NCBI RefSeq assembly: GCF_022414575.1
Contig: NZ_JADWYQ010000054.1
Location: 1-39,425 of the forward strand
Length of the DNA stretch: 39,425 nt
DNA from: Streptomyces sp. MUM 178J
GTDB lineage: Bacteria > Actinomycetota > Actinomycetes > Streptomycetales > Streptomycetaceae
Direction of reading: 5' to 3'
A program made the translations under genes and the position numbers. The notes beneath the pieces were generated by a model. It had not been told where the DNA came from. It saw only the letters and a program-made list of their open reading frames with translations, and ran no database searches. Shown here one piece after another: positions 17,873-21,786 of this stretch. Numbering within the stretch: the first letter of the stretch is position 1; every line of letters starts with the position of its first letter.

Positions 17873-18691
17873 ATGCAGAGCCTGGCGATGATCGAGAACT
17901 GGCCGACGCCGACCGCGGCGGCCGCCGTCGTACGCGCGGACGGGACCGTCGCCGGCGCACACGGTCCCACCGGACGCCGCTTCCCGCTCGCCTCCGTCAC
18001 CAAGCCGCTCGCCGCGTACGCGGCGCTCGTGGCGTACGAGGAGGGGGCGGTCGAACTCGACGAGCCGGCCGGTCCCGAGGGCTCGACCGTGCGGCATCTA
18101 CTCGCCCACACCTCCGGTCTCGCCTTCGACGAGCACCGCGCCGTGGCCGCGCCCGGCACACGCAGGATCTACTCCAACGCGGGTTTCGAGGTGCTCGGCG
18201 ACCACATCGCCAAGGCGACGGACATCCCGTTCGAGGAGTATCTGCGGCAGGCGGTGCTCGAACCGCTGGGGATGACCTCGACCGCGCTCGACGGGTCCCC
18301 GGCCAAGGACGCCGTCTCGACGGTCGACGACCTGGTGCGCTTCGCCGCCGAGGTCCAGGCCCCGCGGCTGCTCGACGCCCGCACGGTCCTGGAGGCGATG
18401 ACCGTCGTCCATCCGGGGCTGACCGGCATCCTGCCCGGGTACGGGCATCAGAAGCCCAACGACTGGGGCCTCGGCTTCGAGATCCGCGACGGCAAGTCCC
18501 CGCACTGGACGGGCGCCTCGTCGTCGCCGCGCACCTTCGGGCACTTCGGCCAGTCCGGCACCTTCCTGTGGATCGACCCGGACGCGGGCGCGGCGTGTGC
18601 GGCGCTGACGGACCGGGCGTTCGGGCCGTGGGCGATCGAGGCGTGGCCGACGTTTACGGACGCGGTGCTGGCGAACCTGAGGTCTGCCTGA
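17873..18691 (+). CDS. Serine hydrolase, beta-lactamase / DD-peptidase fold
   Basis: A 272-aa member of the class C beta-lactamase-like family. The active-site motifs are ASVTK (Ser41, Lys44), YSN (100-102) and a third box around FGHFGQSG. There is no signal peptide, so it may act in the cytosol as an esterase or peptidase rather than on cell wall. The start is ATG 17873. It is divergent from merR across an 81-bp gap containing the MerR-type dyad. Its 3' end overlaps the convergent lipoprotein gene by 38 bp. The substrate cannot be read from sequence. Confidence 0.9.
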   Translation: MQSLAMIENWPTPTAAAAVVRADGTVAGAHGPTGRRFPLASVTKPLAAYAALVAYEEGAVELDEPAGPEGSTVRHLLAHTSGLAFDEHRAVAAPGTRRIYSNAGFEVLGDHIAKATDIPFEEYLRQAVLEPLGMTSTALDGSPAKDAVSTVDDLVRFAAEVQAPRLLDARTVLEAMTVVHPGLTGILPGYGHQKPNDWGLGFEIRDGKSPHWTGASSSPRTFGHFGQSGTFLWIDPDAGAACAALTDRAFGPWAIEAWPTFTDAVLANLRSA

Positions 18692-19271
18692 GATCGTCGG
18701 GTTCGGCGACCTGTGGCGTGGGCCGGGCATCGGCCCCGTCCTCCTCGGCGCAGCGCGACGCAGGCACCCCGCCGTCCGGGCCGATGAGAAGCACCTCGAC
18801 GGCGCCCGACGTGTCGGCGGCGTACGCGGTCGTGCACACCAGCTGCAGTACGGCGTGCTCCGGCAGCCTGCGCACCGAGAACGAGGCCCTGATCTCGACC
18901 CGGCCGGGGAACTCCGCGGACCGCGTCACCCGGAGGGCGCCCACGGGCGGCGGGGGCAGGGCGCTCTCCAGCCCGGCCTCCTGCTCGTGCGGCAGCGGCC
19001 CCGCCGCCAGCGCCGCGAGGCTCTTGCCGATCGCCTCCTGCGAGATATGCAGTTCCTCGGGTCCGCCGAAGTTCGTGTCGGCCGACCGGGCCACCGGCAC
19101 CAACTGTCTCTCGGGGCCGACGAAGAACAGCAGCAGCCGGTGTGCTTCGTCGGGGTAGACGTTGACGGTGGCGGGCCCGCCGGCCTCGACGACGCCGGTC
19201 CCCTGCACTCCGCAGCCCGCCAGCAGCAGGGCCGCCGATGCGGCGAGAGCCCGGCCCAGAGCCCGCCTCAC
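18654..19271 (-). CDS. GerMN-domain lipoprotein of a two-component operon
   Basis: The 205-aa lipoprotein has signal and lipobox LLLAGC (Cys20). The body contains the GerMN-like pattern: strand VNVYPDEAHRLLLFFVGPERQLVPVAR, a helix with ISQEAIGKSLAALAAGPLPHEQEAGLESALP, and LVCTTAYAA near the end. Such domains are found in sporulation GerM and in envelope lipoproteins such as mycobacterial LpqB. The start is GTG 19271, overlapping the kinase stop (GTGA), so it is the third gene of the regulator-kinase-lipoprotein operon. By analogy with kinase-associated lipoproteins it may tune signal sensing outside the membrane; this is inference. The 3' end overlaps the convergent serine hydrolase gene. Confidence 0.85.
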   Translation of the reverse strand: MRRALGRALAASAALLLAGCGVQGTGVVEAGGPATVNVYPDEAHRLLLFFVGPERQLVPVARSADTNFGGPEELHISQEAIGKSLAALAAGPLPHEQEAGLESALPPPPVGALRVTRSAEFPGRVEIRASFSVRRLPEHAVLQLVCTTAYAADTSGAVEVLLIGPDGGVPASRCAEEDGADARPTPQVAEPDDLRQTSGSPAPRP

Positions 19272-21109
19272 GAGGTCGCCCCCTCCGTGGTCAGGGGCAG
19301 TTCGACGGTGAAGACGGCTCCGCCGCCGGCGGCGTTGGCGGCGCGGACCGTGCCGCCGTGCAGCCGTACGTTCTCCAGGGTGATGGCCAGTCCGAGACCG
19401 CTGCCCTCCGAGCGGGTGCGGGCGGCGTCCGCCTTGTAGAAGCGGTCGAAGAGATGCGGCATGGCCTCCTTGCTGATGCCCGGGCCGCTGTCGGCGACCT
19501 CCATGACCAGGGCGGCCGGTCCCGTGCCGGGGGTCCGGGCGCGCACCCGGACCGTGACGGGCGCGGCGCCGTGCCGCAGCGCGTTGCCGACGAGATTGGC
19601 CACGATGACGTCAAAGCGCCGCGGGTCGACGCGGGCCCGGATGGCGTCGGGCAAGTCCGCGACGACGTCGGCGGGGTCGCTCCAGCGGCGGCTGTGCAGG
19701 GTCTTGCGGATCGTTTCGGCGATGTCGACCTCGTCGAGGTGCAGTTCGGCGGCGCGGGCGTCAAAGCGGGAGATCTCCATCAGATCCTCGACCAGGACGG
19801 CGAGCCTGCCCGTCTCCACGCTGATCAACCGGATGGCGGCGGCGGTGTCGCGGTCCAGCGACCCGGCGTCCTCGTCGAGGAGTTCGGTGACGGCCAGCAT
19901 CCCGGCGAGCGGAGTGCGCAGCTCGTGTGAGACGTCGGCGGCGAAGCGCCGGGCGCGGCTCTCGGCGCGCTGGAGTTCGTCCACCGACCGTTCCAGCGCG
20001 CCCGCCGACTCGTTGAAAGTGCGGGCGAGGTCGGCGAGTTCGTCCGACCCCTTTGCCTGGATGCGGGTGTCGAGCCGTCCGCGGCCCATGCTGCGGGCGG
20101 CCAACCGCAGTTCACGCACCGGCCGCAGCACGCTGCGGGCGGACAGCAGAGCGGGCACGAGCGCCACGGCCAGCCCCGGCACCGCGCCGTCCCGGGCGGC
20201 CGTGACCATGGCCCGTACGTTGGCCTCCTCGTCGTTCAGCGGCATCACCGCGTACAGCGTCAGCCCGCTGGACTGGAAGGAGTGGCCGGTGGCGAAGACG
20301 GCGGGCACCGCGATGGTGAGGTAGGGGTCGCCGCCCTTGACGACGCGCTGGAAGCTGCCGCGGGGGTCGGCGTGGGCGGCGCGGCGCAGCTCCGGGGTGA
20401 TGACGGTGGAAACCGGGCTGCTGGTGGAGGAAACCCGGACCGATCCGTACTCGGCGAAGACATACCAGGCGCGGGGCTTTCCGCGGCCCGCTATGCGGCG
20501 CAGCTCCCGCTGGAGGTGGGCGCCGTCGACGGGGAGGCCGACGGCGAGGTTGGCCACCTGGTCGCGGAAGGAGGAGACGGCGGTGTTCTGAGTCTGCTCC
20601 AGGATGGCGTTGCGGGCCTCGCGATAAGTGAGGGTGGCGGTGGTGCCCGCGCTGACGGCGGCCACGAGGAGGAAGGCGAGGACGAGCCGGGTGCGCAGCC
20701 CGAAGCGCGCCCGTGTCGGCGACCCGGCAGCCTCGCGAGTGTCGCTCACAGATCCCCCTTGTTCGCTTCTCCGCCCACTCGGCGAAACAGCAGACACCGC
20801 CACCGCCTGCGACCCGGCAGCCTCGCGTGCGTCGCTCACAGATCCCCCTCGTTCGCTTCTCCGCCCACTCGGCGAAACAGCAGACACCGCCACCGCCTGC
20901 GACCCGGCAGCCTCGCGTGCGTCGCTCACAGATCCCCCTCGTTCGCTTCTCCGCCCACTCGGCGAAACAGCAGACACCGCCACCGCCTGCGACCCGGCAG
21001 CCTCGCGTGCGTCGCTCACAGATCCCCCTCGTTCGCTTCTCCGCCCACTCGGCGAAACAGCAGACACCGCCACCGCCTGCGACCCGGCAGCCTCGCGTGC
21101 GTCGCTCAC
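19268..21109 (-). CDS. Sensor histidine kinase with N-terminal 30-residue tandem repeats
   Basis: The frame gives 613 aa from GTG 21109, which overlaps the response-regulator stop (GTGA). Residues 1-120 are four near-identical 30-residue repeats (SDAREAAGSQAVAVSAVSPS core). A fifth start-like copy (MSDTREAAGSPTR) at residue 121 leads into the real kinase: TM1 (~141-158), an extracellular sensor (~160-305), TM2 (~310-325), HAMP, then HisKA with phospho-acceptor H395 in ADVSHELRTPL, an N box (NLVGNALRHG), and G boxes (ADSGPGIS, GSGLGLAI). Without the repeats the protein would be ~493 aa from GTG 20749, normal for an AfsQ2/CseC-like kinase. The true start may be any of five GTGs. Confidence 0.9.
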   Translation of the reverse strand: MSDAREAAGSQAVAVSAVSPSGRRSERGGSVSDAREAAGSQAVAVSAVSPSGRRSERGGSVSDAREAAGSQAVAVSAVSPSGRRSERGGSVSDAREAAGSQAVAVSAVSPSGRRSEQGGSVSDTREAAGSPTRARFGLRTRLVLAFLLVAAVSAGTTATLTYREARNAILEQTQNTAVSSFRDQVANLAVGLPVDGAHLQRELRRIAGRGKPRAWYVFAEYGSVRVSSTSSPVSTVITPELRRAAHADPRGSFQRVVKGGDPYLTIAVPAVFATGHSFQSSGLTLYAVMPLNDEEANVRAMVTAARDGAVPGLAVALVPALLSARSVLRPVRELRLAARSMGRGRLDTRIQAKGSDELADLARTFNESAGALERSVDELQRAESRARRFAADVSHELRTPLAGMLAVTELLDEDAGSLDRDTAAAIRLISVETGRLAVLVEDLMEISRFDARAAELHLDEVDIAETIRKTLHSRRWSDPADVVADLPDAIRARVDPRRFDVIVANLVGNALRHGAAPVTVRVRARTPGTGPAALVMEVADSGPGISKEAMPHLFDRFYKADAARTRSEGSGLGLAITLENVRLHGGTVRAANAAGGGAVFTVELPLTTEGATS

Positions 21110-21110
21110 A
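20721..21110 (-). repeat. 90-bp in-frame tandem repeat at the kinase gene start (4 full copies plus partial)
   Basis: The segment gacccggcagcctcgcg recurs at exactly 90-bp spacing (20721, 20811, 20901, 20991, 21081). Three full units are identical or nearly so; the copy next to the kinase core (20721-20810) differs at a few positions, and the outermost copy (21081-21110) is a 30-bp fragment. On the coding strand each unit ends with a GAGG/AAGG purine run 7 nt before a GTG, so each of the four inner GTGs has its own ribosome-site-like sequence. Confidence 0.95.
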
Positions 21111-21786
21111 GTGGGCCGAAGCGGTAGCCGAAGCCGCGCAGCGTCTGTATGTACCGCGGGCTGCCGGGCACGTCCTCGATCTTGTTCCGGAGCCGCCGGA
21201 CGCAGGCGTCGACCAGTCGGGCGTCGCCGTGGTAGCTGTGCTCCCAGACGTGTTCGAGGAGCTGCTGTCTGCTGAAGACCTGTTCTGGGGCGGCGGTCAT
21301 ATACAGCAGCAGTCTCAGCTCGGAGGGGGCGAGCGTGAGCCGCTGCCCGCCCTTGGAGACGGTCAGCCCGGCGCGGTCGACGGAGAGTTCGCCGTGGACC
21401 TCGACGGAGGTCCGGCCGGCGGGCGCCTCGATCCGGCGGAGCACCGCCCTGATCCGGGCGTCGATCACATCGGTGCGGGCGGGTTTGACGATGTAGTCGT
21501 CGGCGCCCGCCTCCAGTCCCACCACGACGTCGAAGTCGTCGCCGCGGGCCGTGAGCATGATGATGGGCAGTTGGCTGGCCTCCCGGACCCGGCGGCAGAT
21601 CTGCACGCCGTTCATGCCCGGCAGCATCAGATCCAGCAGCAGCAGATCGGGGCGGAACTCACCGAGGGCGGCGAGCCCGGCCTCCCCGGTGCCGACGCCG
21701 CACACCTCGTGCCCGCGTCGGCGCAGTCCGAGTTCGACGCCTTCGCGGACGGAGGGATCGTCTTCGATCAGCAGGACGCGTGGCAT
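21106..21786 (-). CDS. OmpR/PhoB-family response regulator
   Basis: The 226-aa regulator has a receiver domain (acidic pocket EDD at 8-10, phosphoacceptor Asp52 in LLLDLMLPG, Thr79 in MLTA, Lys101 in IVKP). A C-terminal winged helix follows (LTLAPSELRLLLYM, RLVDACVRRLRNKIEDVPGSPRYIQTLRGFGYRF). It is close in type to AfsQ1/CseB regulators of Streptomyces. It is the first gene of a tight regulator-kinase-lipoprotein operon (GTGA overlaps). There is no ribosome site; a GATACT hexamer ends 6 nt before the ATG, so a leaderless transcript is likely. A perfect tgtccggaca palindrome at 21810-21819 upstream could be an autoregulatory site. Confidence 0.93.
   Translation of the reverse strand: MPRVLLIEDDPSVREGVELGLRRRGHEVCGVGTGEAGLAALGEFRPDLLLLDLMLPGMNGVQICRRVREASQLPIIMLTARGDDFDVVVGLEAGADDYIVKPARTDVIDARIRAVLRRIEAPAGRTSVEVHGELSVDRAGLTVSKGGQRLTLAPSELRLLLYMTAAPEQVFSRQQLLEHVWEHSYHGDARLVDACVRRLRNKIEDVPGSPRYIQTLRGFGYRFGPL

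Follow-up and report, generated by a model that had tools for sequence, protein, structure and literature searches.

What is an array of 90-bp units doing between a response regulator gene and a sensor histidine kinase gene, and how did it get there? The question is raised by a stretch of 39,425 nt from Streptomyces sp. MUM 178J (contig NZ_JADWYQ010000054.1), which is referred to as a whole as the window. An initial annotation, made from the letters alone, had taken the array for a kinase start duplicated by amplification, whose copies might tune the amount of kinase. Here we follow the repeat unit through this genome and its relatives.

The array at the regulator/kinase junction

TRF reports a repeat at 20719-21111 with a period of 90, 4.4 copies and 99% matches. 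The minus-strand units 21109-21020, 21019-20930 and 20929-20840 are identical to each other, and the fourth unit (20839-20750) is changed against them at 1/90 positions. Both the TRF result and the unit comparison confirm four 90-bp units plus a 30-nt partial one, as described initially, whereby the copy number is that of a draft assembly (127 contigs, 6.63 Mb). The outermost GTG at 21109 indeed overlaps the TGA of the regulator, as is evident from the open reading frames 21106-21786 and 19268-21109. Moreover the frame is kept across the copies: a single open frame, 613 codons long, contains all five GTGs. The HAMP, HisKA and HATPase_c domains of the kinase are found at residues 323-607, with the kinase core extending from about 20749 downwards. 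The features are compiled in Table 1.

Table 1. Features of the regulator/kinase junction and of the adjoining genes, in window positions.
Feature	Position	Strand	Basis
OmpR-type response regulator, stop TGA 21106-21108	21106..21786	(-)	ORF; PF00072 + PF00486
Sensor histidine kinase from the outermost GTG, 613 aa, repeats forming the N-terminus	19268..21109	(-)	ORF
GTGA of copy 1, regulator stop/kinase start overlap	21106-21109	(-)	ORF ends
Element copy 1, 79 nt	21031..21109	(-)	Covariance model R1, 81.3 bits, E 1.5e-17
Linker between copies 1 and 2, 11 nt, SD-like GAGGGGG	21020..21030	(-)	SD duplex -12.4 kcal/mol, before GTG 21019
Element copy 2, identical to copy 1	20941..21019	(-)	R1, 81.3 bits
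Linker between copies 2 and 3, 11 nt, SD-like GAGGGGG	20930..20940	(-)	SD duplex -12.4 kcal/mol, before GTG 20929
Element copy 3, identical to copy 1	20851..20929	(-)	R1, 81.3 bits
Linker between copies 3 and 4, 11 nt, SD-like GAGGGGG	20840..20850	(-)	SD duplex -12.4 kcal/mol, before GTG 20839
Element copy 4; the one change of the fourth unit falls in the linker after it	20761..20839	(-)	R1, 81.3 bits
Linker between copy 4 and partial unit, 11 nt, SD-like AAGGGGG	20750..20760	(-)	SD duplex -11.7 kcal/mol, before GTG 20749
Partial fifth unit, 30 nt, kinase side, GTG at 20749, 2/30 changed	20720..20749	(-)	Comparison
Next operon gene, lipoprotein-like (N-terminus by eye)	18654..19271	(-)	ORF; no Pfam match

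The kinase stop overlaps the start of the next gene by 4 nt as well. This is a second stop/start overlap in the operon, and it carries no element. No Rfam RNA family matched at E ≤ 1 within 20600-21250, and a scan of 20650-21200, which as to promoters covers the sigma-70 type only, gave neither a sigma-70-type nor a terminator-like match.

The unit belongs to a family dispersed in Streptomyces

The array unit matches six other loci in the 6.63-Mb genome, and because the same unit is present there, the array is beyond chance. A covariance model (R1) built from 54 elements yields 12 matches at 7 loci in this genome, with elements of 78-81 nt. At the partial unit of the array it gives a weak match (20691-20749, 17.4 bits, E 0.033).

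A plain local tandem repeat, in which slippage duplicated the start region of the kinase and no mobile element took part, would account well for the perfect register, the near-identical inner copies and the partial last unit. It does not explain the six other loci of the genome, nor the copies that many further genomes carry next to unrelated genes, and we regard it as extremely unlikely. Local amplification of the kinase start was therefore rejected as the origin of a unit that is dispersed. Likewise the proposed duplication of an ancestral kinase start finds no support, the unit being an interspersed element at many unrelated stop/start junctions.

In the genus the 3’ core of the element, searched with ≤ 2 mismatches, is present in 35/246 genomes including this one, while a reversed-pattern control gave 0 matches in all genomes listed. 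Among the matches listed in a scan of named genomes (80 of at least 115 stretches) we find Streptomyces, Actinacidiphila, Streptantibioticus and Wenjunlia as well as one metagenome-assembled genome, "Actinomycetes bacterium". In a class-wide sample the 3’ core occurs in 10/28 genomes of the genus versus 3/268 others, the latter as single 2-mismatch matches, and the covariance model finds 12/28 versus 2/268, the two outside being weak (E 2.4e-4 and 5.0e-4). These out-of-genus matches were read as chance. Decayed copies are under-represented among the loci, because it was mainly the 3’ core that served to collect them.

A protein search with the repeat region retrieved one protein, P0001, among 7990 scored candidates. 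It is a protein of 382 aa with glycosyltransferase domains and carries three N-terminal repeats of 30 residues which resemble those of the window kinase.

The element sits on stop/start overlaps

A typical element starts on the TGA of the preceding gene, and its last letters are GCGAAC, after which come an SD-like linker and the next start. It holds a mini-ORF of about 31 codons, the TGA of which is in 4-nt overlap with the start that follows. We examined 178 arrays or loci, a set that pools copies of some of the same genomes and in which loci identical over a short key were merged. 29 did not enter the frame counts: in 18 no 5’ end was recognisable, 7 had no TGA, and 4 lay close to the end of a locus. 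Of the remaining 149 arrays with intact TGA end, many of which are orthologues of each other, 115 lead through successive 4-nt overlaps to a downstream ORF that extends 150 nt or more beyond the element, 24 run in frame into the downstream ORF, some of them perhaps by chance given the long open frames of high-GC DNA, and 10 do neither. In 129/149 the upstream frame stays open over 100 codons or as far as the locus end.

Clustering assigned 135/149 arrays to 54 distinct sites (14 with short upstream peptides were left aside), of which by majority 36 are coupled, 13 fused and 5 neither. A stricter coupling test was passed by 77/115 single-copy loci versus 11/1024 NTGA sites taken as controls from within these loci. 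The insert length up to the next [AG]TGA (n = 96) is 2 mod 3 in 84 cases, 0 in 11 and 1 in a single one. Judged by eye from the translations, the neighbours include hisB, argC-argJ, nuoD-nuoE, sdhA-sdhB, gatA and mreD-mrdA (MreD-PBP2).

Single copies make up 138/178 family members. Where copies are repeated, units of 89, 92 or 95 nt lead to chains of mini-ORFs, with nine consecutive ones in L092 and L093. With a unit length of 87 or 90 nt a single, longer ORF may arise, which again terminates on the following start (L153, L157). The array of the window itself is an in-frame fusion and has no separate mini-ORF overlapping both neighbours. This form is not limited to the clade of the window and the sister strain Streptomyces sp. 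PR69, as the 24/149 loci show. In the genome of the window 4/7 loci are clean fusions; of the others, C6 follows neither pattern, C3 lacks the 5’ end and has 91-nt units, and C52 has the element inside a gene.

At the 77 strictly coupled loci two SDs are stronger than random (-5.2), namely that of the host ahead of the mini-ORF, with a mean of -9.9, and that of the element ahead of the gene, with a mean of -9.6; host and element do not differ in this respect (p 0.17). The codon-position entropies of the mini-ORF (0.39/0.52/0.50) give no coding signature. Hence we rejected the mini-ORF as a real coding sequence, and its product is probably irrelevant. The mini-ORF is free of stops in 30/30 members of the 81-nt class, to which high GC may contribute something.

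In one cluster of seven loci, among them L150, L167, L172, L209, L220 and L229, the element is found at an upstream stop. Here 6/7 are neither coupled nor fused and one is coupled, perhaps representing operon ends.

Covariation supports a hairpin between the ends of the element

In the alignment of the 54 sequences the ends of the element pair with each other. The helix 9-20/59-70 shows two-sided compensatory changes in 7/11 pairs, and 0/500 shuffles reach the observed measures. Its cells are paired to 95.3%, versus 17.8-54.3% when the helix is slid. Columns 16-17/62-63 are GC/GC in 32/54 sequences and GA/GA in 12/54; the window copies have the GA/GA form, which could correspond to tandem sheared G.A pairs. 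The minimum-energy fold of a single window copy differs from the consensus hairpin and is not significant (z -1.31), and the whole array folds no better than shuffles (z 1.19). Thus it is covariation rather than single-sequence folding that supports the end-to-end hairpin. At the very ends of the element few bases are paired, and clear terminal inverted repeats are not seen.

Empty sites and copy-number change

Relatives were compared at the sites of the element. From the genus 29 orthologous kinase loci were fetched, of which one (L134) could not be parsed. Among the 28 parsed orthologues, 24 have nothing but the 4-nt overlap at the kinase junction, and all 29 loci are free of covariance-model matches. 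In PR69 (L217) the same regulator/kinase junction holds 2 full units plus a partial one versus 4 in the window. The proposal that copy number differs among relatives is thus borne out with 4 units here, 2 in PR69 and no model match in the 29 other orthologous loci, a comparison between species and not between strains of one species. At this locus PR69 aligns in blocks of 87-94%, two of which include repeat units, and its unit differs from that of the window at 16/90 positions. This difference, combined with the near-identity within the window, points to homogenisation or fresh expansion per lineage. Overall PR69 has 6 model matches at 3 loci.

Further sites of the genome were compared by eye. 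The C41 site is a clean empty GTGA in PR69, and the C3 site is there a start-codon GTGA. At the C42 site three relatives (G035, G030, G018) have ATGA, and PR69 has an unrelated spacer without model match instead of a clean empty site. The C7 copy is common to this genome and PR69, and for C6 no clean empty site was found among the relatives compared. The C52 copy (L005, G000:C52:33008-33086) interrupts a MazG-like gene (NTP pyrophosphohydrolase-like, by eye) and is an exception to the DTGA placement, as GTG is followed by T. Since the gene is uninterrupted in G030, G018 and G035 (by eye), this copy looks like a true insertion within a gene; the C52 region is only partly matched in PR69.

Tandem copy number also varies at a hisB-type junction (L093, L084, L085, L099 and orthologues), where 1 to 9 copies are found over 20 loci.

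Based on these comparisons, the array very probably goes back to the insertion and tandem amplification of an intercistronic element which is dispersed in Streptomyces and close kin and resembles the MIRU of mycobacteria (see below). Most likely the element entered a pre-existing GTGA overlap and was amplified in tandem afterwards. In general the element lies in coding direction at stop/start (DTGA) sites, and at the junction of the window the ribosome ending the regulator would meet the same GTGA as without it. As insertion would keep the stop-restart path of the ribosome, it should be tolerated inside core operons. Tandem copies would then come and go, with slippage or recombination as the likely cause. 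In most of the family a short peptide would be translated first, after which the ribosome would restart at the following overlap.

Instead of a selfish insertion, the family could be a conserved intercistronic RNA regulatory element, e.g. a hairpin for mRNA stability or processing. The compensatory pairs would suit such a role, as would the fact that several species carry the element in the same core operons (20 loci of hisB type, 9 of argC-argJ type). Its distribution is however patchy (35/246 genomes by the 3’ core) with unrelated genes at the 54 sites, and the variable copy number as well as the insertion within the MazG-like gene fit mobility better. We therefore consider an RNA regulatory element rather unlikely.

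Consequences for translation of the kinase

A GAGG or AAGG stretch had been noted before each GTG. This is true for the four inner GTGs, which have strong computed anti-SD duplexes (Table 1), and ribosome sites are in this respect multiplied in this strain as had been claimed; the outermost GTG 21109, however, has no SD (-1.7 kcal/mol). This start probably relies on translational coupling. At the bare junction of the orthologues there is likewise little or no SD, with -1.7 to -4.0 kcal/mol in the eight orthologues computed, so that translation of the kinase probably hinged on a restart at the overlap before the element arrived.

The ribosome finishing the regulator would most likely restart at GTG 21109 with its 4-nt overlap and read through all repeats, giving the kinase of 613 aa. 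Because the unit has 90 nt (0 mod 3) in the window and in PR69, each copy would add 30 residues to the kinase instead of a separate mini-cistron.

Alternatively the repeats could have been selected for the SD and GTG that come with every copy, resulting in several kinase isoforms and a looser coupling to the regulator. The contrast between the inner GTGs (-11.7 to -12.4 kcal/mol) and both the overlap start and the orthologous starts speaks for this idea. In the PR69 array, though, the SD at the second GTG is weak (-3.8 kcal/mol) and GCG stands in third place, leaving no innermost GTG; moreover the single copies that dominate the family have no such effect. Selection for multiple starts is accordingly doubtful in our view. 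The tuning of kinase amount put forward initially would thus be possible in this strain but is not conserved, given that PR69 is without strong SDs and innermost GTG. As PR69 keeps the frame and not these signals, read-through is favoured as the shared outcome, and one fused protein started at the overlap seems the simplest result common to both strains. The inner SDs may add shorter, uncoupled kinase forms in this strain.

Relation to known mobile elements

REP elements are short, dispersed imperfect palindromes, sometimes clustered, which are moved by RAYT (Y1) transposases. The Streptomyces element is also a short dispersed imperfect palindrome and sometimes clustered. It differs by its precise stop/start register, its mini-ORF with SD and the missing association with Y1_Tnp. 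MITEs are small non-autonomous dispersed repeats. The Streptomyces element shares small size and dispersal with them but has no clear terminal inverted repeats, and no cognate transposase was identified.

If the element were a palindrome of REP/RAYT type, copied by a Y1 (IS200/IS605-like) transposase, its seat on overlaps would reflect a mere tolerance of insertion. The imperfect hairpin of its ends with compensatory changes agrees with such a palindrome. Against it, the genome of the window has no Y1_Tnp match at E 1e-5, Y1_Tnp occurs in 11/35 element-positive versus 66/211 element-negative genomes (the 246 genomes of the element scan and the 246 of the Y1 scan being taken as the same set), and the precise TGA register is left unexplained. 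Copying of this type is very unlikely, and a Y1 transposase was rejected as mobiliser for want of association with element presence.

The closest resemblance in behaviour is to the MIRU of mycobacteria. The passages on MIRU in PMC12548453 (citing Supply et al. 1997) describe mobile units whose insertion at a start codon couples an internal ORF to the gene at -4 spacing. For the spacer between senX3 and regX3, the relevant text of PMC4213456 gives copies of 77 bp and 53 bp and reports promoter activity. H37Rv has 41 MIRU sites, 12 of them polymorphic, and the rnc-fpg1 spacer measures 279-358 bp in the tuberculosis complex versus 1-54 bp elsewhere, according to the respective sections of PMC2734929.

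As far as these sections describe MIRU, both families consist of short dispersed units (MIRU 40-100 bp, Streptomyces 78-81 nt) in intercistronic positions, both lie at start codons or overlaps with an internal ORF coupled at -4, and tandem copy number varies in both, MIRU likewise occurring within a two-component operon (senX3-regX3). By analogy, the Streptomyces element appears to work like a MIRU. Mycobacteria are however another bacterial group, and the likeness drawn here is one of behaviour as described. In addition, the Streptomyces element has a hairpin backed by compensatory changes, as shown above, and the unit at the junction of the window is 0 mod 3 and fused to the downstream protein. 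Within open-licence PMC articles we found no description of such an element in Streptomyces.

More tentatively, with a likelihood that we place slightly below even, Streptomyces and close kin may hold their own, independently arisen MIRU-like hairpin mini-cistron, which inserts at overlaps of core operons and re-creates the overlap, and whose units of 0 mod 3 in some lineages became N-terminal modules of 30 residues. If the array is a MIRU-like insertion as proposed above, mobile elements exploiting translational coupling would not be peculiar to mycobacteria but seen again in another high-GC Gram-positive group. With 1 to 9 copies per site, the family in its core operons would provide naturally graded material on which termination-reinitiation could be tested. 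Furthermore the arrays would be candidate loci for strain typing and bear on the calling of gene starts, and at the junction of the window the element would change the N-terminus of a protein.

Carriage and possible nesting of repeats

Phages and plasmids were searched as possible carriers. The phages searched gave no match to the element, and the plasmids searched gave none to the window copy. With a generic copy, 3 partial matches (79% identity) were obtained in Streptomyces plasmids.

The 5’ end of the element is replaced or disrupted in L055, L087, L137 and L143. In L055 and L087 its place is taken by another hairpin-like repeat, GGGGGCACCTCCCAGCGGTAGC, and L137 and L143 show the same left edge, CCAGCGGTAGC. 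These arrangements suggest that one interspersed repeat landed in another at the four loci.
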